A program made the position numbers and the translations under genes. 51,312 nt of DNA from Oscillospiraceae bacterium (GTDB lineage Bacteria; Bacillota; Clostridia; Oscillospirales; Oscillospiraceae), in assembly GCA_017458065.1 (NCBI GenBank), contig JAFTGD010000036.1, forward strand, positions 1-51,312, given 5' to 3'. This document shows positions 14,862-48,635 of this stretch, in pieces. Within the stretch, counting starts at the first letter, position 1, and every line of letters starts with the position of its first letter. The notes under the pieces were generated by a model. It had not been told where the DNA came from. It saw nothing but the letters and a program-made list of their open reading frames with translations, and ran no database searches.

Positions 14862-15012
14862 TATTCTTCAGAATATTGCTGATCAGGCGGATATGATTGT
14901 TGCCGGCTATGCGTTCACTGCTACGGAAAACGATTTTGTAAATGGTCTCGGTATTCGGTTCACGGGTTTTACGGAGACAATCAATAAAACAAGGAGAATT
15001 TATCATGTCTGA
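14851..15012 (+). CDS. Small unrecognised protein B of the YjjI operon
   Basis: A 53-residue protein, starting ATG at 14851 (GGTGGAGG upstream, inside the previous gene) and overlapping the yjjI start by 8 bases. It starts MPDSILQNIADQADMIV and includes FTATENDFVNGLGIRF. There are no cysteines, no signal peptide and no membrane helix. The tight overlaps on both sides indicate translational coupling. Function unknown. Confidence 0.7.
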   Translation: MPDSILQNIADQADMIVAGYAFTATENDFVNGLGIRFTGFTETINKTRRIYHV

Positions 15013-16525
15013 AGCACTGAATATTATTCAAGATCCTACTCTTACATATCATCAGGAGTTGCTGGCTTTGGCTCGTCTGGGGGAGAGCACAGACAATTCT
15101 CTGCGCTATTCGGATGCCTATTATGAGGCTAAAAGAAAAGGCGCTCTCTGCGACTTAAATGAGGGAGTCATGCCGTATCGCCCTCGCTACATCTGCCCAG
15201 ACTACGATCTGCTGTTTCAGAAGGGCTGCAAATTCCTGGAACTGGATCCGCCGAAAGATCTGCTCGAAGCGGTGAACGTGCTGGAGATTTTCTACTGTCA
15301 TGTCCCGTCCATAACCAGTTTCCCGGTTTATCTGGGTGATCTTGACAGGCTGCTTGAGCCCTTTGTCGTCAGGGAAGACCGCGCTTATGCCAAAAAAGTG
15401 TTGGGCCTTTTCCTGCGCAACATTGACCGTGTGCAGACGGACTCTTTTGTACACGCGGATATCGGGCCGGAAGACAGCATCACCGCGCGGCTTCTGCTTG
15501 AGCTGACCGAGGAAATGCAGCTTGCTGTGCCGAATCTCACCCTGCGTTATGATCCGGAAACGACGAGCGACGACTTTGCCCTCGCCTGCGTCAAATGTAT
15601 GCTTAAAACCGCTAAACCATCTTTTGCCAACCACCGCATGTTCGTCAAAGAATGGGGAGAGAGGTATGCCATCGCCTCCTGTTACAACGGCCTGTCCATC
15701 GGTGGCGGTGGATTTACCTTGCCTCGCCTGCGGCTGTACGAATGCGCCCTGGATGCAAAGAGCCCGGAAGACTTCCTCGAGCGCGAACTGCCGCGCCATA
15801 TTGATTTACAGCTGGAATACATGGATAAGCGTGTGAAGTTCATCGTGGAGCAGTCGTCTTTCTTCAAGACAAATTTCCTGGTCACGGAGGGCTTTGTGAA
15901 GAGAGAGAATTTCACAGGCATGTTTGGCGTGGTAGGCCTGGCCGAGTGCTGCAATTACCTGCTGGGGATCACGGACAAAAAGAAGGGCTTCGGCATGAAC
16001 GAGGAAGCCACAGCTCTTGGACTGCGCATCATGGACGCTATAGATGCACGTGTGAAGGCTCATGAAGCACCTTACTGTGAAGCCTATGGCCATCGTTATC
16101 GGTTGCATGCGCAGGTCGGCATTGATACAGACGGCATGGACGACTCTCCCGGTACGCGCATTCCCATTGGGGTGGAACCGACAATGCTGGAACAGCTTGA
16201 GGTCAATGAAAAATTTCACCCTTATTTCCCAACCGGTACCGGTGACATCTTCAAGTTCGAGGAGACATGGCTCAAGACTCCTGATGCGATTCTCGCCATT
16301 ATCAAGGGCTCTCTGGAAAACGGCCTGCGTTACTTCTCCGGCTATCTTGAGAACAACGATGTAGTGCGCGTAACAGGCTACCTTGTAAAAAAGAGCGAGA
16401 TCGAAAAACTGCGGGCCAAGAAACAGTCGCTCAACAACGTGACCGTTTTCGGTATGGGCGCACAGGACGGCGGACACGCCCTTGATCGGAGGGTTCAGCA
16501 GTATGGTGAAGGCACCGGTCAATAA
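15005..16525 (+). CDS. yjjI: YjjI-family glycyl radical enzyme
   Basis: A 506-residue member of the YjjI family (formerly DUF3029), starting ATG at 15005 with AAGGAG. The radical glycine motif is VVRVTGY, with G458, 48 residues before the C-terminus; other glycyl radical enzymes have RVSGY. A Cys-rich core, GLAECCNYLLG, is a candidate active-site region. The enzyme is activated by the partner YjjW, whose gene overlaps its end by 23 bases. The substrate of YjjI is not established to my knowledge. In E. coli yjjI-yjjW lies beside the deoCABD nucleoside genes, and here it lies between a 5'-nucleotidase and a nucleoside importer plus DeoD, which favours a role in (deoxy)nucleoside or pentose breakdown. 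Confidence 0.93.
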   Translation: MSEALNIIQDPTLTYHQELLALARLGESTDNSLRYSDAYYEAKRKGALCDLNEGVMPYRPRYICPDYDLLFQKGCKFLELDPPKDLLEAVNVLEIFYCHVPSITSFPVYLGDLDRLLEPFVVREDRAYAKKVLGLFLRNIDRVQTDSFVHADIGPEDSITARLLLELTEEMQLAVPNLTLRYDPETTSDDFALACVKCMLKTAKPSFANHRMFVKEWGERYAIASCYNGLSIGGGGFTLPRLRLYECALDAKSPEDFLERELPRHIDLQLEYMDKRVKFIVEQSSFFKTNFLVTEGFVKRENFTGMFGVVGLAECCNYLLGITDKKKGFGMNEEATALGLRIMDAIDARVKAHEAPYCEAYGHRYRLHAQVGIDTDGMDDSPGTRIPIGVEPTMLEQLEVNEKFHPYFPTGTGDIFKFEETWLKTPDAILAIIKGSLENGLRYFSGYLENNDVVRVTGYLVKKSEIEKLRAKKQSLNNVTVFGMGAQDGGHALDRRVQQYGEGTGQ

Positions 16526-17345
16526 GATCATTCCTTTTTCCAATGTAGACGGGCCAGGAAACCGTACTTCGATTTTTTTTCAAGGCTGTCCCTTCAACTG
16601 TCTGTTCTGCCACAATCCGGAGACCATTCATCTCTGCAGAAACTGCGGTGTCTGCGTGAAAAACTGCCCGGTAGGAGCTCTGAATATTGATGCGGATTAC
16701 AAGGTAATCTGGAATCGGGAAAAATGTGTTCAATGTGACACCTGCATTAAGGTCTGTCCGCACGACGCCTCACCGAAAATCCAATGGATGACAGTAGAAG
16801 AAGTCATGAAAGAGGTTCGACGTGCATCACCTTATATTGCAGGGATCACCACTTCAGGCGGGGAATGCACCCTTCAAAACGAATTTCTGATTGAGCTGTT
16901 TTCCAACGTTCTGAAACTGGGCAAGACCTGTCTGATCGACTCCAACGGCTCTTTTGACTTTGAGGCGGACCCGCGTGTGCTGAAAGTTTCAGAAGGCGTG
17001 ATGCTGGATGTCAAAGCAGTTGAGAAGGGCTGGAATGATGAACTGATCTCTTTTCCGAGGGACATCGTCCTGAAGAATCTTGATTATCTGCTGCAGATCG
17101 GAAAACTCTATGAGGTACGAACCCTGATCTTCCCAAACCGCGACCGGGAGAATGAAGAAACCGTCCGTTATGTGGCGGAACACATTCGTGACCGTTGCTT
17201 CTATAAAATTATACGTTATCGCCCTTATGGCGTACGGGAAAAGAACCGCAAACGAATAGGAGAATTCGAAACCGATTTAGATTATGCGGAGAGATTTGCC
17301 GCTCTCGCACGCGAAAAGGGTGCGACAAAAGCATATGTAGTATAA
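16503..17345 (+). CDS. yjjW: YjjW-family glycyl radical enzyme activase
   Basis: A 280-residue radical SAM protein. The SAM cluster motif is CPFNCLFC (C29, C33, C36). An inserted ferredoxin-like domain carries two further 4Fe-4S motifs: C45-x2-C48-x2-C51-x3-C55 and C75-x2-C78-x2-C81-x3-C85. TTSGGECTLQ matches the SAM-binding GGE region. It abstracts the YjjI glycine hydrogen to make the radical. Start at 16503 chosen over 16482 because GGAGGG lies about 10 bases upstream. It overlaps yjjI by 23 bases and is followed by a bidirectional terminator. Confidence 0.95.
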   Translation: MVKAPVNKIIPFSNVDGPGNRTSIFFQGCPFNCLFCHNPETIHLCRNCGVCVKNCPVGALNIDADYKVIWNREKCVQCDTCIKVCPHDASPKIQWMTVEEVMKEVRRASPYIAGITTSGGECTLQNEFLIELFSNVLKLGKTCLIDSNGSFDFEADPRVLKVSEGVMLDVKAVEKGWNDELISFPRDIVLKNLDYLLQIGKLYEVRTLIFPNRDRENEETVRYVAEHIRDRCFYKIIRYRPYGVREKNRKRIGEFETDLDYAERFAALAREKGATKAYVV

Positions 17346-39255: not shown

Positions 39256-39291
39256 AAACGAGGCTGCCTCAAAAGTGAGACAGCCTCGTTT
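39256..39291. terminator. Bidirectional terminator between mgl and Lsr-like operons
   Basis: AACGAGGCTG (39257-39266) pairs with CAGCCTCGTT (39281-39290), A-run on the left and T-rich on the right, inner CTC/GAG pairing. Confidence 0.85.
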
Positions 39292-39325: not shown

Positions 39326-40297
39326 TTATCCCAGTTTGTTGCCCATCATTCTTCTGGTACGCAGAGAGTCGATGTACATGGCGATGAAGATGATGACGCC
39401 GCGGACGAAAGGCGTGACAAAAATGGAGATGCCCGCGTTTGCCATGCCTGCCGCCAGGAACAGCAGGATCAGCGAGCCGATGACCGCGCCCGGGAAGATG
39501 GTGCCGCGGCCGCCCAGAAGGCTGATGCCGCCAAGGCAGGCGCCCGCAATGGCAAGGAACTCATAGCTGTTCAGACCGGTGGTCACGATTGCGCCTTCCA
39601 CAACGATCCAGAAGAACGAGCCGGCGATGCCGCAGAGCAGGCCTTCCAGCAAAAGCGCCTGGGTCTTGACCCGGTCGGAATTGATACCGATTCGCTTCGC
39701 CACGTTCTCGTCGCAGCCTACCAGCAGCAGTCTGCGTCCAAAGGCGGTATACTTCAGCACCAGGTGCAGGATCACAATGAACACGATGAGCACGATGACC
39801 GTGAGCTGCAGTCCTCCCAGCGCGGCGATACGCGTCTGCCGGAGCGCCTTAACGTGGTCGCCGAGGGTGATGGTGTTGTCGTTTGTCAGGATACGCCCGT
39901 AAGCGCGCAGAACGAGCATCATGCCGAAGGTGACCAGCATGCCGTTCATTTTGAGCTTTACGATCAGCAGGGAGTTGACCCAGCCCAGGAACACGCCGAT
40001 CACGATACCGACGAGAAGGGCTGCAGCGAACGGTACGCCATACCAGTGCATCAGCATACCGGAGGAGACGCCGGCTGCGTAGCCGATGGCGGCGCAGGAC
40101 AGGTCAATGATTCCTACCAGGAGGCTGAAGGTTACGGCGCAGGTGATCAGGATCAGGGGCGTTCCGTTGTTGATGGTCGCATAAACGCTCCTCAACGTCA
40201 GGAAGTTGTTCCCGACGATCCCGAAGATGACCAAAATGGCGAGCAGCACAAGATAGGAAGACAAATTAAAAACGTCAAATTTCTTCTTATTCTGCAT
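39326..40297 (-). CDS. CUT2 ABC importer permease, second of the Lsr-like operon
   Basis: A 323-residue permease with about eight to ten helices. The usual motif near residue 60 reads SLLVGIIDLSCAAIG (canonical: GGIDLSVGS). The coupling loop is VGCDENVAKRIGI, and CLGGISLLGGRGTIFPG lies near the end. It starts ATG inside the end of the ATPase gene (11-base overlap) with AGGAGGAG just before. Last gene of the operon. With the other permease it should form a heterodimer, as LsrC-LsrD do. Confidence 0.85.
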   Translation of the reverse strand: MQNKKKFDVFNLSSYLVLLAILVIFGIVGNNFLTLRSVYATINNGTPLILITCAVTFSLLVGIIDLSCAAIGYAAGVSSGMLMHWYGVPFAAALLVGIVIGVFLGWVNSLLIVKLKMNGMLVTFGMMLVLRAYGRILTNDNTITLGDHVKALRQTRIAALGGLQLTVIVLIVFIVILHLVLKYTAFGRRLLLVGCDENVAKRIGINSDRVKTQALLLEGLLCGIAGSFFWIVVEGAIVTTGLNSYEFLAIAGACLGGISLLGGRGTIFPGAVIGSLILLFLAAGMANAGISIFVTPFVRGVIIFIAMYIDSLRTRRMMGNKLG

Positions 40298-41813
40298 TTT
40301 TCTCCTCCTGACTGACGATGCCCTTCATCAGGTTCTCCTTCGAAAAGTCCGCTTTCTGTACTTCGCCGACCAGTCTGCCTTCATAAATCACGATGATTCT
40401 GTCGCACAGACTCATGATTTCTTCCAGCTCTGAAGATACAACCACAAAGGAGGTCCCTTTTTCCGCTTTCTCAATAATCAGTTCCTTGATCTCGTTCTTG
40501 GCGCCAACGTCAACGCCCTTGGTGGGTTCATCCATAAACAGGATCTCCGGATCCTTCAGGAACCACTTGGCGATGATGACTTTCTGCTGGTTGCCGCCGG
40601 AGAGCTTGGAGACTTTCATGTTTTCGTCAATGGCTTTGACGTCAACTTCCTTCATCAGCTTGCGGGCTTCCACGGCTTCTTTTCCGGGATTGAGAATGCC
40701 AAGGCCCTTGGTTGCAAACTCATCCAGCTTGGAGCTGGTGATGTTCCTGCCGATGGACATGTTCAGGAACAGGCCGTCATAATGTCTGCCCTCGGTCAGG
40801 TAGCCGATGTGCTTGTAGAATTCCTTCTGGGTGATCTCGCGGAGCTCTCCACCTTGCTTGAAGTACAGCTGTCCGTCGACCATCTTGTCGATGCCGAGGA
40901 TGGTGTTGAAGAGCTCGCTTCTTCCGGAGCCGAGCAGACCCCAGACGCCGAGGATCTCGCCCTTGTGCAGCTCGAAGCTGAAGTCTCTCGGCAGCTTTTC
41001 ACCGGAGATGTGCTCCGCTTTGAAAATCACATCGTCCAGCGTGTTGCCGCGGACATGAGTGCTGCCTTCGATCTGATAGCCCAGCATCATCTCGACCAGC
41101 TGCTCTTTGTTGATGTCGCTGATGTCCGCTTTCCCCACGACCTGGCCGTCTCGTAGCACGACAACATTGTCGCACAGCTCAAAAATCTCATCCAGGAAGT
41201 GGGAGATGTAGAAGATGATATAGCCCTGCTCTTTCAGCCTGTGGATAACGCTGAACAGCATGGCGACCTCGTGGTCGGAGAGGGAGGAGGTCGGCTCGTC
41301 GAAGAGGAGGATCCGACCGCCCTGGCTCAGCGCACGGGCGATCTGGATGATCTGCTTGTCGCCGACGGTGAGGGTGTATACCGGGGCCTCCACATCGATG
41401 TGGCTGTCAAGCGCTTCCAGGTGAACCTTCGCTTCCTTCTTCATGGCGGCGCGGTCCAGTGCGAAGGAGCCTTTTTTCCGCCACTTGTTCAGGTCTGCAG
41501 CCAGAATGTTCTCATAGACATTCATGGTGTCGAAGGCCTGTACCTCCTGCTGGATAAAGGCGACGCCAAGCTTCGTGGAAGCTTTGGGGTCTGCGATCAC
41601 GACCTTCTCGCCGTTGATGATGATCTCGCCGCCCTCGTCCGGCTGGTGAATGCCGCCGAGGATGTTCATCAGGGTGGACTTACCTGCGCCGTTGACGCCG
41701 ACAATGCCGCACACTTTGCCCGGCGTTGCGGAGAACGAAACATCCGACAGCGCTTTGACGCCGGGGAAGGTCTTGCTGATATGCTTCAGCTCCAAAGAAA
41801 GTTTGTTATCCAT
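40287..41813 (-). CDS. CUT2 ABC importer ATPase of the Lsr-like operon
   Basis: A 508-residue protein with two ABC domains: Walker A GVNGAGKST (39-47), Walker [11 protein letters not shown], a degenerate second Walker A (LLGSGRSE) and signature [13 protein letters not shown] with FMDEPTKGVDVG. It matches LsrA/RbsA in length and layout. AAGGAG precedes the ATG. Three bases separate it from the upstream permease stop. Confidence 0.9.
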   Translation of the reverse strand: MDNKLSLELKHISKTFPGVKALSDVSFSATPGKVCGIVGVNGAGKSTLMNILGGIHQPDEGGEIIINGEKVVIADPKASTKLGVAFIQQEVQAFDTMNVYENILAADLNKWRKKGSFALDRAAMKKEAKVHLEALDSHIDVEAPVYTLTVGDKQIIQIARALSQGGRILLFDEPTSSLSDHEVAMLFSVIHRLKEQGYIIFYISHFLDEIFELCDNVVVLRDGQVVGKADISDINKEQLVEMMLGYQIEGSTHVRGNTLDDVIFKAEHISGEKLPRDFSFELHKGEILGVWGLLGSGRSELFNTILGIDKMVDGQLYFKQGGELREITQKEFYKHIGYLTEGRHYDGLFLNMSIGRNITSSKLDEFATKGLGILNPGKEAVEARKLMKEVDVKAIDENMKVSKLSGGNQQKVIIAKWFLKDPEILFMDEPTKGVDVGAKNEIKELIIEKAEKGTSFVVVSSELEEIMSLCDRIIVIYEGRLVGEVQKADFSKENLMKGIVSQEEKNAE

Positions 41814-41816
41814 CGA

Positions 41817-42773
41817 TTACGCTCCTTTCTTCAGGGCCTGCTGCTGCCGATAGGAAGAAATGCCCATTGCGCCGATGATGATGCCGCCCTTGATCAGCGT
41901 CGTATAGTAATCCGATACGGCAAGCAGATTCATCACGTTGTTCAGGCCGACGATCAGGAACGCGCCGAGAACGGCATCCCGGACGCGGCCGGTGCCGCCA
42001 TTCGGAGAGACGCCGCCGATGACGGCCGCGCTGATGATGTCCAGGATCTGGGACTGGGGACCCATGTTCGCTCTTGCGGTTGCAATGGAAGCTGTGTTGA
42101 TGACGCCCGCGATACCGGCGCACAGACCGCTGATCACATACGTGAGCATGGTGAGGTTCTCGCTGTCAATGCCGGAGACTCTTGCGGTTCTGGCATTGTT
42201 GCCGATGTAATAGAGCTTTCTGCCGAACTTTGTACCGGTCAGAATAAAGTCCAGAACAATCGTAACAAGCAGGAGAATGATGATGACCGTCGTCTTGTTG
42301 AAGAATGTGGAGAAAGACGGCGGCAGAATCGGCAAACCGCGCGTTCCGCTGAGGATCGTGGCAAGGCCCGTGCCGATCGTCATCATGGAAAGCGTAACCA
42401 CCATCGGGACCATCTTCAGCTTTGCAATGGCAAAGCCGTTAATCAGGCCGAGAAGAGAGGCGGTCAGAATGATGACAAAGGTGCCGACGATCAGGTTGCC
42501 GCCCAGCGTGGTCATGTAATACACGCCGACGACGGCGGAGGCCGCCATGACGGCGGGGTTAGAAATGTCCATACCGCCGATGACCAGCACATAGGTTGCG
42601 CCGCAGGCCATCACGGCAATGGGGGCGATCTGCTGCAGAAGGTTGGTAAGATTCCGCGGGGTGGCGAAATTCGGAACTGTCAACGATAGTATGATAAACA
42701 CGACGGCGATGACGCCGAGCATGATCAGTAGCGTTTTATTGTTGCTTGCGAAGCGTTTCAGTTTTGCTGACAC
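41817..42773 (-). CDS. CUT2 ABC importer permease, first of the Lsr-like operon
   Basis: A 318-residue permease starting with GTG (GGAGGG about 10 bases upstream). MACGATYVLVIGGMDISNPAV is the counterpart of the GGIDLSVGS motif. IGNNARTARVSGI is the coupling loop, and VIGGVSPNGGTGRVRDAV lies near the end. A strong hairpin separates it from the binding-protein gene upstream. Two different permeases in one operon recall LsrC and LsrD. Confidence 0.85.
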   Translation of the reverse strand: MSAKLKRFASNNKTLLIMLGVIAVVFIILSLTVPNFATPRNLTNLLQQIAPIAVMACGATYVLVIGGMDISNPAVMAASAVVGVYYMTTLGGNLIVGTFVIILTASLLGLINGFAIAKLKMVPMVVTLSMMTIGTGLATILSGTRGLPILPPSFSTFFNKTTVIIILLLVTIVLDFILTGTKFGRKLYYIGNNARTARVSGIDSENLTMLTYVISGLCAGIAGVINTASIATARANMGPQSQILDIISAAVIGGVSPNGGTGRVRDAVLGAFLIVGLNNVMNLLAVSDYYTTLIKGGIIIGAMGISSYRQQQALKKGA

Positions 42774-42833
42774 GATCGTGTTCCCTCCATTCTTGGAAGC
42801 TGTCTAAGTCAAAGAAAAAAGAAAATCAGGATC

Positions 42834-42860
42834 GGGGGCGAGGCAGTTGGCCTCGCCCCC
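42834..42860 (-). terminator. Attenuator hairpin after the Lsr-like binding protein
   Basis: Perfect 11-bp stem GGGGGCGAGGC/GCCTCGCCCCC, 5-base loop, between binding-protein and permease genes. Confidence 0.7.
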
Positions 42861-42904
42861 CAGGATAATGCTAAGTGTTGATTGTTCGAAGAGCGCCGGA
42901 CGTA

Positions 42905-44071
42905 TTAATAGTCTGCGTAGTCGTTGCCCCACAGAGGAATGGTGGCAAGGATCTCTTCGATGTTGTCGTTGGTGGACTGGGTTCCGAGAACCAGCTGCAC
43001 CTGCTCAACTTCCTTGCCCTCGAGCAGGTCGAAAGCACCGGCGGCAGCATGAACTGCGAAGTTGTAGCAGCCCTGGTCAACGGCGGTGTCCATGTAGCCC
43101 TCACGCAGATGCTGGATGCCGAGAGGATACATATCGGAAGCGGAGAAGTACACGTGGCCTTCCTCGCCGCGCTTGTGCCACATACCGGCATCTTCCATAG
43201 CCTTCTGGATGCCGCTGTTCAGGAAGTCAGAAGAAGAATACATGCAGTTTGCATCGGGGTTGGCTGCGAGGACAGGAGCGAGGTTCTGGCCGCAGACGTC
43301 GGGCTCCCAGTGGCCGCACTCGACTTCGACAATGGGGATGCCCTCATAGCCGCCGTCCTTCAGAGCGCGCTGCAGACCGGCTTCTCTGTTGTGGGCGTTC
43401 TCGTCGGTCTTGTCACCGTAGCAGTCAATCAGTTTGACGGGCTCAACGCCGTCAGCCTTCATGATCTCCCACAGATCCATCATGCCGACATACGCCTGCT
43501 CTTCGGAAGCGAAGTTAACGGTCAGATCGGGGACCTGGTCGCCGGTCGCATCGTGGGAAACTTCACGGCAGTAGGAAACATAGATGATGCCTGCGTCGTG
43601 GACTTCCTTGACGGACTGCAGAATGGCCTGAGAGTCAAGGCAGGGGCAGAAGATGACTTCGCATCCGGCGGCAATCAGGTCACGGATGTCGTTGGCCTGC
43701 TTGGTGACGTCGTCAGCGGCGTTGGTGGTGATGAGCTCAACTTTGTAGCCGCGCTGCTCTGCTTCGTAGTCCAGTCTGTACTGCAGATAATCTGCCCAGG
43801 CGTGGAAAGCAGCAGCCTGAAGGCTCTGCATCGCAAGGCCCATCTTGACGGGCTTGAGTTCGGCTTCTGCGTCAGCAGCTTCTTCCGCCGGAGCGGCTTC
43901 TTCTGTCGCAGCTTCTTCCGCGGGTGCTTCCGCGATGTCCTGCTTGGGGGATCCAGCGCTGCCCTGCTGAGAGGTGCTCTGGTTGCTGCCACCGGCAGCT
44001 TGCTGCTGGCCGCATGCACAAAGTGCAAAGATCATAACCAGCGCGAGGATGATTGCTAGGGTCCTTTTCAT
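42905..44071 (-). CDS. Lsr/Rbs-type binding lipoprotein
   Basis: A 388-residue binding protein. Lipoprotein signal with Cys20 (ALCAC), then a flexible Gln/Ser/Ala/Glu-rich linker of about 55 residues (repeated EEAA units) that lifts the domain from the membrane. The binding domain starts VKMGLAMQSLQAAAFHAW. It has IFCPCLDSQAILQS, SYCREVSHDATG and YSSSDFLNSGIQ. It is the CUT2 (RbsB/LsrB) fold, but I do not see an LsrB-specific ligand signature, so binding of AI-2 is not shown. Several Cys residues in the domain are unusual for the family. Confidence 0.85.
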   Translation of the reverse strand: MKRTLAIILALVMIFALCACGQQQAAGGSNQSTSQQGSAGSPKQDIAEAPAEEAATEEAAPAEEAADAEAELKPVKMGLAMQSLQAAAFHAWADYLQYRLDYEAEQRGYKVELITTNAADDVTKQANDIRDLIAAGCEVIFCPCLDSQAILQSVKEVHDAGIIYVSYCREVSHDATGDQVPDLTVNFASEEQAYVGMMDLWEIMKADGVEPVKLIDCYGDKTDENAHNREAGLQRALKDGGYEGIPIVEVECGHWEPDVCGQNLAPVLAANPDANCMYSSSDFLNSGIQKAMEDAGMWHKRGEEGHVYFSASDMYPLGIQHLREGYMDTAVDQGCYNFAVHAAAGAFDLLEGKEVEQVQLVLGTQSTNDNIEEILATIPLWGNDYADY

Positions 44072-44141
44072 GTTTTTCCTCCTTAGTTTCTTTTTTCTTT
44101 AAAGCCCTCCGTTTCCGGAAAGCGTTCAAAGCATGTTAAAA

Positions 44142-44474
44142 TTAGTTCTTGTCTTCGTAAAGCTCGATGATGGCGTCGTCCCAAATGACGAATGCCAGGC
44201 GGATCTTCGGGTCGTTGTTGACGTGCGCCGGTCCGAAGATGACCTGCTGGGCCTGCTCCGCGTAGTACTCGATGTTGTCGACGCTGTAGGCCACATGGGG
44301 CTGCTTGGAAAGGATCTCGGGGAAGATGGTGCCTTCGTCAAACTTGAGGTACTCAATCTTGAAGTCGTAGGCGTCAACGCTCTCGTTGACCCAGAACTTG
44401 CCCCAGTCGTTGTAGACCATGTTGGGCTTCTTGTTCAGTACGGGAATGCCAACGTGCATGTATTCAGCGGACAT
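44142..44474 (-). CDS. VOC-fold (glyoxalase-like) metalloprotein
   Basis: A 110-residue protein with the classic VOC metal set in order: H7 (MHVGIPV), E41 (KIEYLKF), H60 (PHVAYSVDN) and E104 (AIIELYE), across two beta-alpha-beta modules. VOC enzymes of this size act as dimers on vicinal oxygen substrates, often as isomerases, epimerases or glyoxalases. It lies between lsrF and the binding-protein gene. In E. coli lsr the equivalent step after phosphorylation is isomerisation of phospho-DPD by LsrG, an unrelated fold; this VOC protein could serve in its place. That is inference. Good ribosome binding site GAAAGGGG. Confidence 0.75.
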   Translation of the reverse strand: MSAEYMHVGIPVLNKKPNMVYNDWGKFWVNESVDAYDFKIEYLKFDEGTIFPEILSKQPHVAYSVDNIEYYAEQAQQVIFGPAHVNNDPKIRLAFVIWDDAIIELYEDKN

Positions 44475-44513
44475 TTCTCTTAAACCCCTTTCGTAATATC
44501 AAAGTAAAGTCTG

Positions 44514-45395
44514 TCAGTTGATGGCGTCGGTGAAGAACTCGAAGGCTTCCTTGCCGGTGAATCCTTCGTGGACGACCTTGCGGATGGCCTTGATCATCTC
44601 GACAGGATGCTCGCTCTGGAAGACGTTGCGGCCCATGTCGACGCCCTTTGCGCCGGCCTGGATGGCCTTGTACGCCATGTCGAGGGCTTCGTTCTCGGGC
44701 AGCTTCTTGCCGCCGGCAATGACGATGGGAACCGGGCAGGCAGCCACGACGTTTTCAAATCCCTCTTCGATGTAGTAGGTCTTCACAAAGGTCGCGCCCA
44801 ACTCTGCCAGCATTCTGGTGGCCAGCATGAAGTACTTCTCGTTGCGCGCCATCTCTTTTCCGACTGCGGTAACGCCCAGAACGGGGATGCCGAACTTGGC
44901 GCCCTGGTCGGCCGCTCTGCAGAGCGCTTCGACGGAAGCCGCTTCGCCGCTGCCGCCGATGAAGCACTGGATGGCCAGCGCGGAGGCGTTCATGCGGATG
45001 GCGTCCTCAAAGTCCAGCGCCATGCCGGAGCCGGTGCTCAGATCCTCAAACAGAACGGAGGTGTCGTGGGTTGCACGGAGGCAGATCGCCTTGTTTGCCG
45101 TGGGCGGGATGCAGCTGCGGATGGCGCCTCTGGTGGCCATCAGCACGTCCGCGTACTCGCAAAGCGGCGCGATGGTGACATCCAGACGCTCAAGCCCTGC
45201 CGTGGCACCCATGAAGTAGCCATGGTCGAAGGCCAGCATGACGGTGTTCCCGGATTTGGGGTCGAAGATTCTCGACAGGCGGTTCTTCATGCCCCAGTCG
45301 GTATTGCCAAGGCCCTTCACAAAGAAGCCGGTGTCTGCCGCGGGAATATCCAGATGGTAATCTTTTGCAATTTTATTTCCGACTGCGTCAGCCAT
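44514..45395 (-). CDS. lsrF: LsrF-like aldolase/thiolase
   Basis: A 293-residue class I aldolase-fold protein with close similarity, from memory, to E. coli LsrF: DWGMKNRLSRIFDPK, TVMLAFDHGYF (H58), LERLDVTIAPL, FVKTYYIEEGFE with active-site K205, PVPIVIAGGKKLPE and GVDMGRN. LsrF transfers an acetyl group from 3-hydroxy-2,4-pentanedione 5-phosphate to CoA, the last step of AI-2 breakdown, giving DHAP. A related aldol cleavage of another phospho-ketose is the alternative. AAGGAG lies 10 bases before the ATG. Confidence 0.88.
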   Translation of the reverse strand: MADAVGNKIAKDYHLDIPAADTGFFVKGLGNTDWGMKNRLSRIFDPKSGNTVMLAFDHGYFMGATAGLERLDVTIAPLCEYADVLMATRGAIRSCIPPTANKAICLRATHDTSVLFEDLSTGSGMALDFEDAIRMNASALAIQCFIGGSGEAASVEALCRAADQGAKFGIPVLGVTAVGKEMARNEKYFMLATRMLAELGATFVKTYYIEEGFENVVAACPVPIVIAGGKKLPENEALDMAYKAIQAGAKGVDMGRNVFQSEHPVEMIKAIRKVVHEGFTGKEAFEFFTDAIN

Positions 45396-45412
45396 TTTTC
45401 AAATACTCCTTC

Positions 45413-46411
45413 TTACTCTTTGAAGAACACGGTTGCGTGAGCGGGCGTATTCCACAGCGCCTCGATCTCATCGTCCCACTTGGCCATATCCAGCTGGAAG
45501 CCGGCGGCTTCCTGAACAGTCAGGATCTCGCCAACCATGCAGCCGGCAATCTTCACGCCCATGTTCTCAAGATAGGCAACCGTCTCTTTGTAGAGGATGT
45601 ACATCTCCATCAGGGTGGTTGCGCCGCTGCCGTTGATCATGACGAAAGCCTTGTCGCCGGCCTTCAGGCCCAGGTGCTCGACGATGGGCTTCGCAACAGT
45701 GGCGATGGTGTCCTTCGCGCTCATCATCGGGACGCGGACGCCGCCGCCTTCGCCGTGCTGGCCTGCACCGATCTCCATCATGTCGCTCTCGGCCAGATCA
45801 CCAAAGGAAGCGCCGTTCTGCGGATGCGTTGCGCAGGCAACCTGAACCGCGATACCGGCCATGTTCCGGGCATAGCGCTCGCAGATGTCGGCAACCTCAT
45901 CCAGGGTCTTTCCTGCAGCGCAGGCAGCACCGGCAATGTGGTACAGAGCGGCGGCGCCGCCCAGACCGCGGCGGTTCTCCTCGCCGTTGGGGTCAAAACG
46001 GATCTCTTCGTCGGTGACGACCTGGCGCACCTTCATACCGGCCTTCTTGGCCAGCTTCAGAGCCTGCTTGCCGGCGAGCTGGTCGCCTGCATAGTTCAGG
46101 GTCAGCAGCAGAACGCCGTGGCCCTTGTCCGCACGCTGCATGGCCTCAAAGACCAGCTGGCCGGAGGGAGCGGCAAAGATGTCGCCGACGGCGCAGACAT
46201 CCAGCATGCCTCTGCCGGTGAAGCCCTGCACGGCGGGCTCATGGCCGGAGCCGCCATAGCTGACGACGGTGACGCGGTCCGCATTGGCAAGGTCCTTGCT
46301 GATGACGAGATGTCCGTCAACTTCGACGACATCGCCGTACACCAAACCCATGCCTTCCAGCAGTTCGTCGGTCAGGGTTGCGGGATCGTTCATAAACTTC
46401 TTCATTTTCAT
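45413..46411 (-). CDS. dhaK: Dihydroxyacetone kinase subunit DhaK
   Basis: A 332-residue DhaK subunit. GGSGHEP (53-59, H57), NYAGD (D110) and GAGQHGE (H219) preserve the substrate-binding His, the general base Asp and the His that forms a hemiaminal with the ketone substrate, as in E. coli D109 and H218. It binds a short dihydroxyketone covalently for phosphorylation by DhaL. No dhaM phosphocarrier gene is in the window, so the kinase may use ATP directly or an unlinked DhaM. DHA itself, erythrulose, apulose or DPD are possible substrates; the neighbour LsrF favours a DPD-like compound. Confidence 0.92.
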   Translation of the reverse strand: MKMKKFMNDPATLTDELLEGMGLVYGDVVEVDGHLVISKDLANADRVTVVSYGGSGHEPAVQGFTGRGMLDVCAVGDIFAAPSGQLVFEAMQRADKGHGVLLLTLNYAGDQLAGKQALKLAKKAGMKVRQVVTDEEIRFDPNGEENRRGLGGAAALYHIAGAACAAGKTLDEVADICERYARNMAGIAVQVACATHPQNGASFGDLAESDMMEIGAGQHGEGGGVRVPMMSAKDTIATVAKPIVEHLGLKAGDKAFVMINGSGATTLMEMYILYKETVAYLENMGVKIAGCMVGEILTVQEAAGFQLDMAKWDDEIEALWNTPAHATVFFKE

Positions 46412-46460
46412 ACTTTCCTGTCTCCTTTATATATTTTTTGTTTTGAAACAGTGCTCTTTC

Positions 46461-47069
46461 TTATTCTTTGGCGAGACCTTCGAAGAACTTTGCCATGGAC
46501 ATGGCGCCGGCGTCCGGGGTGCCGATGGTCTTGGCGCCGAAGGTCTTGGCACGGCCAAACTTGGAAACAAAGTTCTTGCTGTTTTCCGCACCCGCTTTTG
46601 CGGCTTCCGCCGCGACGGAGAAGAGCTCGCTCACGCTGTCGCCGGCATAGGCGGCGATGGCCTCACAGGCGGGGATCACGGTGTCCATCATGGTCTTGTC
46701 GCCGACCTTGGCGCCGGACATGTCGTCCAGAGCTTCAAACGCGGAGGCGAACATCGCCTTCACACCGTCAACGTCGATCTCTTCCGCTTCCGGAGCGCCT
46801 TCCTGCATGCCGTCCAGCCAGGAGTTCCACAGGGGAACTGCGCTGCCGCCGTTCAGGCTCAGCACGGCCATGGCCGCATCGTCCAGCATCTCCTTGATGT
46901 CGCCGGTGGACTCGGTAACCGCGTTCTTGACGGCGGCGGCAATCTTGTGCATGGTCAGACCGTGGTCGGCATCACCGAACTTGGAATCAATATCGGTCAG
47001 CTCCTGCTCCGCACCGATCACACTCTCACAGGCGTTGATGATTCTGCTTTTCAACTGGCTTATTTCCAT
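46461..47069 (-). CDS. dhaL: Dihydroxyacetone kinase nucleotide subunit DhaL
   Basis: A 202-residue all-helical DhaL subunit. D28, D33 and D35 in IDSKFGDADHGLTM reproduce the Mg-nucleotide-binding Asp triplet (D30, D35, D37 in E. coli). NGGSAVPLWNSW is the next nucleotide loop. The start is the ATG at 47069 (GAGGGG upstream); a reading from 47108 would begin in the operator region. First structural gene after the regulator. Confidence 0.92.
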   Translation of the reverse strand: MEISQLKSRIINACESVIGAEQELTDIDSKFGDADHGLTMHKIAAAVKNAVTESTGDIKEMLDDAAMAVLSLNGGSAVPLWNSWLDGMQEGAPEAEEIDVDGVKAMFASAFEALDDMSGAKVGDKTMMDTVIPACEAIAAYAGDSVSELFSVAAEAAKAGAENSKNFVSKFGRAKTFGAKTIGTPDAGAMSMAKFFEGLAKE

Positions 47070-47101
47070 TGTAGCTTCACCCCTCAACAAGATTCTAAAA
47101 A

Positions 47102-47115
47102 TTAACATTTGTCAA
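47102..47115. promoter_or_regulatory. Candidate operator 1 of the dha-lsr operon
   Basis: TTAACATTTGTCAA is an imperfect palindrome (TTRACA-2-TGTYAA type), 32 bases before the dhaL ATG and downstream of the promoter. A close variant lies at 47288-47301. Confidence 0.45.
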
Positions 47116-47177
47116 AAAATGGCATTCGCAAAGAATTTTCGCTAAAAACCCTTCTGCGCCATTCTGGATTACGACAT

Positions 47178-47206
47178 ATTTTTGCACTCTTTTTTCAGGA
47201 TGTCAA
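47178..47206 (-). promoter_or_regulatory. Predicted promoter of the dha-lsr operon
   Basis: Minus strand perfect -35 TTGACA (47201-47206), 17-base spacer, -10 AAAAAT (47178-47183). Confidence 0.6.
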
Positions 47207-47224
47207 GAAAAAAGCCGTCCGCTG

Positions 47225-47281
47225 AAAAAAAACTGTCATTATTGCTAAAGTGTTCGGAAAGATTTTAGACAATAATGACAG
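47225..47281 (-). terminator. 12-bp inverted repeat with T8 tract after sorC
   Basis: CTGTCATTATTG (47233-47244) and CAATAATGACAG (47270-47281) are perfect inverted repeats 25 bases apart. On the minus strand they are followed by eight T. Most simply this is the regulator gene's terminator. The AT-rich stem, long loop and place just before the promoter also allow a looping operator. Confidence 0.55.
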
Positions 47282-47287
47282 TTGAAA

Positions 47288-47301
47288 TTAGCAAATGTTA
47301 A
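47288..47301. promoter_or_regulatory. Candidate operator 2 of the dha-lsr operon
   Basis: TTAGCAAATGTTAA, an imperfect palindrome matching operator 1 in the reverse sense. It overlaps the stop codon of the regulator gene and lies upstream of the promoter, so the pair brackets it with about 186 bases between starts. Confidence 0.45.
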
Positions 47302-48239
47302 AAACTGACTCTGGAAACCTTTTCAGCCAGACTGTACGGAAGGACAAGCTGGTTGATGACACCCGTTCGCAGCGCGCCGATGACGCACTGCGCCCTCACC
47401 TGGTTGGAGCAGACAGCTGTCACGTTGGTCTGCCGCAGCTGCTGGATGGAAGCCTGAAAGGTGGATTCGGACAGGGGGGAGATGATTCTGCCGTAGGAGT
47501 CAAAGTAGTGAGCCAGGACCCTGCCGACGGCCTTCTTCTCGGTGAGGGCGTTGCCGTAGAGGGACTTAACGCCCAGATCGGGATAGGAGGGGAAGTTGGA
47601 AACGGATACCAGCGCCTGCTCCATAAAGTCCCACTCCTCCATAATGGAGCGGTAGGCGTCCGACTGTTTCATGATCTCGTATTCCACCGTGGTCTCATAC
47701 AGAGCCGGCGAATATAAAAAGGTAGGGTGTCTGCCCGTTTTCAGGGAGAAAATCCGGACCAGCTCGTTGGTGTGATATCCTCTTGTGACGGAGTTTACCC
47801 TTCCGACGAGCGGAAACAGCGCGCCTCGCGTGGCGATGGCGTTTTCCTGCGTCTCGGCAAAATCCGCCATCCTGCCGAGGATGGAGCCCCAGCCGACGCC
47901 TACATGCTTGCCGTCGTTTGCCTTGCTGAAGCAGAGGTGGAAGGCGGCCTCCGCCACCCGCAGGTTGGTCAGGTCGTCGTTCTTTCCGTCCGGCACGGTG
48001 ATGACGGCGTCGATCCGGTAGGTGTTCCTCAGCTTTTCCGTCACGTACTCGGCGGTGACGCGGCTGTCGTTGATGGAGATGGTGACAATCCCGCGCTCCT
48101 TCGCCTCGTTCAGGATCAGGCTGACAAGGGGCCGCGAGATCCCGAGCTTCTTGGCGATCTCGTTCTGGCTGCAGTTATCCTCGTAATAGAGGCGCGAGAC
48201 CTCTATCATTCTTTTGATTTTATCGTCTGCAGAAATCAT
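47298..48239 (-). CDS. SorC/LsrR-family sugar-binding regulator
   Basis: A 313-residue regulator. An N-terminal sigma-like helix-turn-helix (about 8-55: CSQNEIAKKLGISRPLVSLIL) is followed by the SorC/DeoR sugar-phosphate effector domain (VGVGWGSILGRM and ALRTGVINQLVLPYSLAEKV). LsrR, the AI-2 regulator, is of this family. The ATG at 48239 follows GGGAGAG; the longer reading has no site. It lies directly upstream of the dhaL operon in the same orientation and likely represses it until a phosphorylated substrate binds. Confidence 0.88.
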   Translation of the reverse strand: MISADDKIKRMIEVSRLYYEDNCSQNEIAKKLGISRPLVSLILNEAKERGIVTISINDSRVTAEYVTEKLRNTYRIDAVITVPDGKNDDLTNLRVAEAAFHLCFSKANDGKHVGVGWGSILGRMADFAETQENAIATRGALFPLVGRVNSVTRGYHTNELVRIFSLKTGRHPTFLYSPALYETTVEYEIMKQSDAYRSIMEEWDFMEQALVSVSNFPSYPDLGVKSLYGNALTEKKAVGRVLAHYFDSYGRIISPLSESTFQASIQQLRQTNVTAVCSNQVRAQCVIGALRTGVINQLVLPYSLAEKVSRVSF

Positions 48240-48635
48240 GTTTCTCTCCCGGCGCGTACGGATCCTTTTCCTTATTAATACTACAAAAAAACAAAATTTG
48301 CAACCGAGCAGTTTCCGCATACCGCGGACGGCTTCCTGCGGAAAGCGATTGAAAGCCCGGTGCCGTTCTGTGGCATGATGAGGCGAAAACAAGAATCACG
48401 GCGGAGAAAACCGGCTGCGGGCGGAAACAGAAATTGAGAAAATCATCCGGTCAGAGCAGGATCTCGAAGAAGAAGCATGGAAAAGAACGGTCTCTTTTTG
48501 TGAATATTAAAACAGAAAGGGGGAGACGGTTGTAGAAATTCACAAAAGCTTCCAATTGAAAAAATGGGGCAATTCCTCAATAATGTGGTTGCTGGTTCCA
48601 AGAAACAAAGTTTTTAATGACAGGAGGAATTACCA
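48240..48635. other. Divergent intergenic region, sorC to aminotransferase
   Basis: A 396-base stretch without a gene. The left part should hold the sorC promoter (AT-rich at 48272-48300). The middle 48300-48480 is GC-richer, with no start or site I trust. The right part holds the aminotransferase promoter at 48556-48584. Confidence 0.5.
48556..48584 (+). promoter_or_regulatory. Promoter of the aminotransferase gene
   Basis: -35 TTGAAA (48556-48561), 17-base spacer, -10 AATAAT (48579-48584). Confidence 0.65.

Follow-up and report, generated by a model that had tools for sequence, protein, structure and literature searches.

What is done by an operon that carries the parts of an lsr system, with the dihydroxyacetone (DHA) kinase subunits DhaK and DhaL and a small VOC metalloprotein standing where the kinase LsrK and the isomerase LsrG are expected? 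The question is raised by contig JAFTGD010000036.1 of an Oscillospiraceae bacterium (assembly GCA_017458065.1), analysed as a single stretch of 51,312 nucleotides that is called the window here. The initial annotation proposed a non-homologous version of autoinducer-2 (AI-2) processing. Judged by gene conservation, DhaKL, the VOC protein and an exchangeable lyase are a conserved module with a predicted role in hydroxyketone catabolism. This undescribed gene set is shared by many gut and rumen bacteria and probably phosphorylates and splits a short, open-chain, sugar-like ketone for energy. In the fuller form of the proposal, which we consider evenly poised between right and wrong, a VOC isomerase, a DhaKL 1-kinase and an LsrF or class II lyase would yield dihydroxyacetone phosphate (DHAP), with a 5-deoxypentulose as the leading substrate.

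Conservation of the module and structure of the operon

A scan of named genomes returned 202 relatives of the VOC protein. The best 80 loci, picked in this way by their VOC gene, were used for every count out of 80 given here, and neighbouring genes were read by eye in part of them. DhaK accompanies the VOC protein in 78 of the 80 loci and DhaL in 76, and in the four loci that miss one or the other the contig is cut on that side. This bears out the proposal of a conserved unit made up of DhaKL and the VOC protein, which an LsrF-type enzyme often joins (45/80). The module was found in Bacillota, Actinomycetota, Synergistota, Spirochaetota, Fusobacteriota and other phyla, and its four genes stand together on two Bacteroidota plasmids (Aureibacter, Parabacteroides). 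By their record titles the carriers are largely gut and rumen organisms, among them Hungatella, Gordonibacter, Slackia, Clostridium citroniae and Clostridium asparagiforme, the last two of which we take to be placed now in Enterocloster. The VOC search matched 2 of 291 genomes sampled evenly across the class, where the module is therefore rare. No account of it was found in the open-access literature searched, in which DHA kinase was not paired with 5-deoxyribose, nor apulose with a kinase. Kinase-isomerase-aldolase routes to DHAP are already known; this set of parts appears not to have been described. Where annotation was seen (the Bacteroidota loci), the genes carry unconnected labels: DHA kinase for one part, hypothetical protein for another, AI-2 thiolase for a third.

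The transporter is a variable part. The ABC arrangement of the window recurs in 4 of the 80 loci (L014-L017, L016 being cut), and CUT2 transporters of other kinds accompany the modules of L039 and L076. CUT2 genes, recognized by likeness to the window or E. coli Lsr parts, adjoin the module in 6 of the 80 loci, other transporter types not having been searched. In the genome G263, which belongs to a different family within the class, a divergent SorC gene accompanies the order DhaL-VOC-DhaK-LsrF; no sugar ABC gene was noticed in the 16-kb stretch read, where the contig ends 0.9 kb past LsrF.

The elements of the operon in the window are the following:

47298..48239, minus strand: SorC/DeoR-type sugar-binding regulator (PF04198, 90 bits; scanned as 47298-48242)
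47231..47283, minus strand: stem-loop with 14-bp arms and a T-run behind it, probably the terminator or an attenuator of sorC (inverted repeat)
47178..47206, minus strand: promoter-like site TTGACA-17-AAAAAT upstream of dhaL (from the sequence)
46461..47069, minus strand: DhaL, nucleotide subunit of the kinase (PF02734, 129.5 bits)
45413..46411, minus strand: DhaK, substrate subunit of a distinct subfamily (PF02733, 273.9 bits)
44514..45395, minus strand: LsrF-family class I aldolase or thiolase (NCBIfam LsrF, 424 bits, cut-off 297)
44142..44474, minus strand: VOC metalloprotein, proposed isomerase or epimerase (AlphaFold VOC fold and metal residues)
42905..44071, minus strand: CUT2 substrate-binding lipoprotein (PF13407, 98.9 bits)
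41817..42773, minus strand: CUT2 permease (PF02653, 122 bits)
40287..41813, minus strand: CUT2 double ATPase (PF00005, two stretches)
39326..40297, minus strand: CUT2 permease (PF02653, 82 bits)
39256..39291, minus strand: terminator-like (intrinsic) stem of 16 pairs past the last gene (from the sequence)

All nine genes are open frames on the minus strand in the order first given, and the content of the operon (SorC, DhaL, DhaK, LsrF relative, VOC protein, lipoprotein and CUT2 transporter) was confirmed on re-reading. The earlier description of one minus-strand unit holds for strand and order, but sorC is probably a transcription unit of its own, apart from dhaL onward, because the two genes are separated by a conserved TTGAC box and a stem-loop followed by a T-run. 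The TTGAC is invariant in all four aligned loci, and the stem-loop with its T-run is conserved in the window, L014, L015 and L016. The regulator scores 129.5 bits with the NCBIfam DeoR (Bacillus type) model and 56.8 bits with that of LsrR, both below cut-off; for LsrR the cut-off is 486.

Two further neighbourhoods are worth recording. A YjjI-family glycyl radical enzyme and its YjjW activase (14942-17345, plus strand), both above NCBIfam cut-offs, share the window with nucleoside-type ABC genes and a DeoD phosphorylase; the NCBIfam YjjI model gives no function. Among the Bacteroidota, the module of L128 is flanked by cytochrome c biogenesis genes and that of L127 by c-type cytochrome genes. 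Their neighbours include giant SUMF1/FGE-sulfatase proteins (in L128 with HZS-alpha and NPCBM domains) as well as proteins of the chorismatase-like and beta-propeller kinds, which makes for an unusual redox setting outside the cell.

The lyase, the DhaK pocket and the VOC protein

The lyase of the window was described at first as a close LsrF relative, and with 424 bits and 55% identity to E. coli LsrF it clearly is one. In the 80 loci, however, the lyase slot holds an LsrF-like protein in 45 and a class II, fructose-bisphosphate aldolase (FBA) type enzyme in 26, never both, and neither in 9. An aldolase gene of either type is thus present in 71 loci. On a DhaK tree of 77 rows, from which those below 300 residues were excluded and in which many branches are weakly supported, LsrF and the class II enzyme were exchanged at least 5 times. 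Of the four class II proteins scanned, three passed the cut-off of the ketose-bisphosphate aldolase subfamily. The motif LDHG is present in all 17 of the 26 class II aldolases that were examined, GT[VA]HG in 11 and HGGSG in 15.

The loci with neither lyase are informative. Genome-wide comparisons were made in 50 genomes (those of 48 of the 80 loci, G000 and G263), of which 25 have LsrF in place, 18 a class II aldolase and 7 neither; two of the nine loci with neither, L064 and L090, lie outside this set. Absences in it are soft because some assemblies are incomplete. LsrF was found elsewhere in the genome (E<=1e-40) in 7/7 genomes with neither lyase at the module vs 2/18 class II genomes (Fisher p 7.5e-5, with kinship uncorrected). 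Across an evenly drawn sample of the phylum LsrF is rare, with 5 of 398 genomes at E<=1e-60, the window's genome included. In five of the seven genomes it lies in an lsrK-lsrR/lsrACDB-lsrF operon, in which lsrG was undetected, and in two it lies apart from lsr genes. It appears that LsrF, even one from an lsr operon, serves the module and that a class II aldolase does the same job, so that a single phosphorylated intermediate is probably cleaved by either enzyme. The exchange of lyases and the supply of LsrF in trans therefore suggest a ketose 1-phosphate with a C4 hydroxyl. The interchange also favours a retro-aldol split, with DHAP and a short aldehyde as products, over thiolysis with coenzyme A (CoA).

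Relatives of LsrF also occur in other settings. Those of L139, L140 and L141 are 43-46% identical to E. coli LsrF; in L139 and L140 they adjoin an LsrR-like regulator and a gene that by eye resembles alcohol dehydrogenase, and in L139 and L141 CUT2 genes and an FGGY kinase match. These neighbourhoods may represent another pathway with an LsrF-type enzyme.

The window DhaK keeps H57, D110 and H219 and has L105, A108, A81 and Q218 in its pocket. It scores 248 bits with the dhaK1 equivalog model (cut-off 406), and DhaL scores 114.8 bits with its own (cut-off 138.3). In an alignment of 79 module DhaKs, 3 of them gapped at N-terminal positions, the covalent His and what we take to be the catalytic His and Asp are retained wherever the column is filled. 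The pocket was compared in 69 module DhaKs of 325-345 residues, the window's included, and in 30 control DhaKs, the best Dak1 scorers of 57 matches in the class. At E. coli position 104 the module proteins have Leu (69/69), which none of the 30 controls has (Lys in 25, Gly in 5); at position 107 they have Ala (69/69), at 217 Gln (69/69; Ile in 30/30 controls), and at 80 Ala (67/69; Ser in 28/30 controls). Lys104 and Ser80 presumably touch the hydroxyls of DHA. These residues are the same in module DhaKs linked to LsrF and to class II aldolase, and no VOC or LsrF match was found in the 30 control loci (about 1.5 kb on each side). The module DhaK thus appears to be retuned, with its catalytic residues kept and its pocket rewritten. 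Three lower-scoring DhaKs, those of L124, L125 and L126, were inspected as well. That of L124 (7064-8062) has a pocket of the module type (LNHNGD). A SorC regulator lies at a distance of 2.4 kb, and VOC, DhaL and LsrF were all unmatched in the 15-kb stretch.

The VOC protein has 110 residues, and its H-E-H-E site, noted as intact at the outset, is indeed conserved: every one of the 61 aligned sequences has H7, E41 and H60, and all but one, which has a gap there, have E104. It matched no Pfam or NCBIfam model. Its AlphaFold model (pLDDT 95.9) has the VOC fold of paired beta-alpha-beta units with the metal site present. The best structural matches include glyoxalase I (2qh0, 3hdp) and methylmalonyl-CoA epimerase (3gm5, 3rmu), with 18-22% identity over the aligned part, and the other VOC proteins 2r6u and 1kmz tie with them. 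We take the four ligands to correspond to the metal site of glyoxalase I and methylmalonyl-CoA epimerase. A stand-alone relative of 135 residues occurs in L011 (7097-7504), where DhaK and DhaL were unmatched in the 15-kb stretch, and the VOC family is therefore wider than the module.

Proposed pathway and its substrate

The proposed pathway builds on the observed conservation, pocket, fold, aldolase exchange and LsrF in trans; its reactions, substrate, phosphate donor and regulation are predicted. The VOC protein would act on a short ketose or its 1-phosphate, moving a proton beside a metal-bound carbonyl so that isomers or epimers are interconverted, on the model of glyoxalase I and methylmalonyl-CoA epimerase. 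DhaKL would hold the open-chain ketone covalently through His219, in keeping with the ketone-binding DhaK histidine described in a published study (PMC6429413), and would phosphorylate the CH2OH next to the carbonyl. DhaM is above its cut-off in 9 of the 50 module genomes and was not found in that of the window, and ATP is therefore the likely phosphate donor. The lyase, an LsrF-type class I enzyme here and a class II enzyme in other lineages, would split the ketose 1-phosphate into DHAP and a short aldehyde. In this lineage the CUT2 transporter and the SorC regulator would allow induction by an external substrate. The kinase, isomerase and C-C lyase logic read into the operon from the beginning fits this arrangement.

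The known LsrF substrate, 3-hydroxy-2,4-pentanedione 5-phosphate (P-HPD), corresponds to a 5-deoxypentulose 1-phosphate with a keto group at C4, one alcohol being the difference between the two. For this reason a 5-deoxypentulose (5-deoxyribulose, 5-deoxyxylulose or a 5-thio analogue), which would give DHAP and acetaldehyde, is the simplest fit both to the two lyases and to the greasy, open-chain DhaK pocket. More tentatively, the module may give anaerobes a widespread DHAP pathway with a bifunctional LsrF, acting as retro-aldolase here and as thiolase for AI-2, while the VOC protein supplies or epimerises the 5-deoxypentulose.

Several observations weigh against this proposal. The LsrF residues Asp57, His58, Lys203, Asp251 and Arg254, whose roles are given in the structure paper (PMC2728841), are common to the module LsrFs, the window's included, and to the lsr LsrFs, so that thiolysis fits too. 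Of the 17 class II aldolases examined, 6 do not match GT[VA]HG and 2 do not match HGGSG. The control DhaKs, as best Dak1 scorers, are biased toward canonical enzymes, and the Leu pocket is shared by the DhaK of L124, which has no VOC partner. The methylthioadenosine/S-adenosylhomocysteine (MTA/SAH) nucleosidase is above cut-off in 27 of the 50 module genomes (39 at E<=0.001) and just below it in the window's genome (66.6 vs 73.8 bits). IF-2B, the isomerase family used in the classical shunt, is present in 26 of the 50, the relative in the window's genome lying on another contig. With these counts neither dependence nor complementarity shows, and 5-deoxyribose is without genomic support, co-occurrence telling neither for it nor against it; that of LuxS, IF-2B and the nucleosidase singled out no substrate. 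Among the neighbouring genes read by eye, L078 has a purine nucleoside phosphorylase-like gene 3 kb from its module, without a conserved link.

AI-2 processing with non-homologous parts in a changed order is an improbable alternative. DhaK acts on a CH2OH beside a ketone, and AI-2, as 4,5-dihydroxy-2,3-pentanedione (DPD), has no such group, so isomerisation would have to come before phosphorylation. The VOC protein would convert DPD to HPD by an acyloin shift, which is chemistry of the glyoxalase I kind and places CH2OH next to the ketone; DhaKL would phosphorylate HPD, and LsrF would thiolyse P-HPD to DHAP and acetyl-CoA. The identity of the LsrF catalytic residues favours this, as does the fact that only two alignment columns, by the rule used, separate 5 lsr from 44 module LsrFs. 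In a tree with 41 of the 45 module LsrFs (>=280 residues), the module proteins enclose the lsr LsrFs of three genomes that are not enterobacterial (Enterocloster, Lacticaseibacillus and Thermophilibacter), and the module LsrF of C. aminophilum groups in the clade of these three (support 0.999). An lsr operon accompanies five of the seven modules without an aldolase, and LuxS is present in the window's genome. However, P-HPD has no hydroxyl for a retro-aldol cleavage and would offer nothing to the class II aldolase that fills the slot in 26 of the 80 loci.

The lsr genes themselves also speak against AI-2. The absence of lsrK and lsrG, noted in the initial annotation for the window, extends to its genome, in which LsrG is unmatched and the three LsrK matches, 24-28% identical, are ordinary FGGY kinases. 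Whether the two genes are always missing has a divided answer. At the 80 module loci E. coli LsrG was not found and LsrK gave a single match of 26% identity (L059), but genome-wide (LsrK searched in 25 of the 50 genomes) 7 of the 50 carry, besides the module, an lsrK-to-lsrF operon with an extra cupin gene of its own. Four of the 50 gave weak LsrG-like matches (21-29% identity), the window's genome not among them. At the six LsrB ligand positions, which we take to be K35, D116, D166, Q167, P220 and A222, the window binding protein has Q, C, D, E, P and A, so that three differ in this alignment of remote proteins. Among solved structures, those closest to it are binding proteins of the sugar type or without characterisation; its AlphaFold model, at pLDDT 51.7, was uninformative. 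LuxS has a match in 27 of the 50 genomes, and in 10 of the 25 with LsrF in place; it is unmatched in 23, some of them incomplete assemblies. AI-2 as the substrate, as first suggested, therefore appears weakened by the class II aldolases, the coexisting operons, the LsrB positions and the distribution of LuxS. A simple lsr variant is rejected by the first two of these.

Seven lsr operons (L136, L137, L143, L144, L145, L147 and L148) from genomes of Bacillota, Atopobiaceae and Fusobacteriaceae, in which lsrG was undetected, carry a cupin-like gene beside lsrK. It was named by eye, with no NCBIfam match (L136 9005-9355, 116 residues; L148 17665-18015), and the proteins are 71-85% identical to that of L136. 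This gene is a candidate replacement for the LsrG isomerase; among the open-access literature matches listed, none tied a cupin to LsrG or LsrK. The VOC protein as the LsrG stand-in of such operons was rejected, since these seven have the cupin-like gene by lsrK and the VOC protein keeps DhaKL as its partner.

A common pentulose or tetrulose (xylulose, ribulose or erythrulose), cleaved through its 1-phosphate to DHAP and glycolaldehyde or formaldehyde, is likewise doubtful. The CUT2 transporter of the window operon would suit it. The DhaK of L125, from a related genome, has a pocket that reads 'GNY'. Its neighbours are DhaL, CUT2 genes and, judged by eye, an RpiB-like gene, VOC and LsrF being unmatched, and the DhaK family has therefore been retuned for other substrates. 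The module pocket has turned hydrophobic (Leu, Ala), though, and pentuloses cyclise, which an open-chain-ketone kinase would disfavour. Erythrulose routes run on isomerases and need no aldolase, and CUT2 genes are near few modules. Erythrulose or apulose, the main rival at first, is not favoured, as the conserved partner is an aldolase and not an RpiB-type isomerase or transketolase. A DHA or triose kinase operon with accessory genes is very improbable and in its plain form rejected: the homology of DhaK and DhaL and the kept His218 equivalent are set against the pocket altered in 69/69, scores below both equivalog cut-offs and the aldolase gene in 71/80 loci.

If the DHAP-yielding 5-deoxypentulose pathway is correct, the module defines a new VOC family of sugar or sugar-phosphate isomerases and a DhaK retuned to a new ketone, and an LsrF annotation by itself is no proof of AI-2 processing. 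With a bifunctional LsrF, one enzyme would serve both pathways in lsr-bearing members, linking signal breakdown to deoxysugar salvage, and proteins called AI-2 thiolase would often be misnamed.

Comparison with known systems

Glyoxalase I and methylmalonyl-CoA epimerase share their fold with the VOC protein, which differs in its small size, low identity and lack of a family model. What we presume to be erythrulose-type kinase clusters, represented here by L125, share DhaK and DhaL with a CUT2 transporter; they differ in the 'GNY' pocket, the missing VOC and LsrF matches and the RpiB-like gene, no RpiB-type isomerase being among the nine operon genes. With DhaKLM the module shares the K and L subunits, the covalent His and the catalytic His and Asp. 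However, the window's genome has no DhaM, the Lys, Ser and Thr of the pocket are replaced, and a VOC protein and an aldolase are linked. The E. coli lsr operon (LsrKRACDBFG) has in common with the window a SorC-family regulator, a CUT2 transporter, the LsrF catalytic residues and DHAP as the likely product, but the window operon is without LsrK and LsrG, three of six LsrB positions are changed, and the lyase is replaceable by class II.

The last comparison is with the DHAP shunt for disposal of 5-deoxyribose, formed by DrdK, DrdI and DrdA (PMC6079011). Both systems consist of a kinase, an isomerase and an aldolase leading to DHAP and an aldehyde. The shunt uses MtnK-, MtnA- and fuculose-aldolase-like proteins, whereas the module has DhaKL, VOC and LsrF or FBA; no MtnK-like, MtnA-like or fuculose-aldolase-like DrdA gene is in the operon (MtnK and DrdA not searched genome-wide). 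The shunt phosphorylates an aldose, while DhaKL would phosphorylate a ketose. The module would be a DHAP shunt made of parts unrelated to the known ones.

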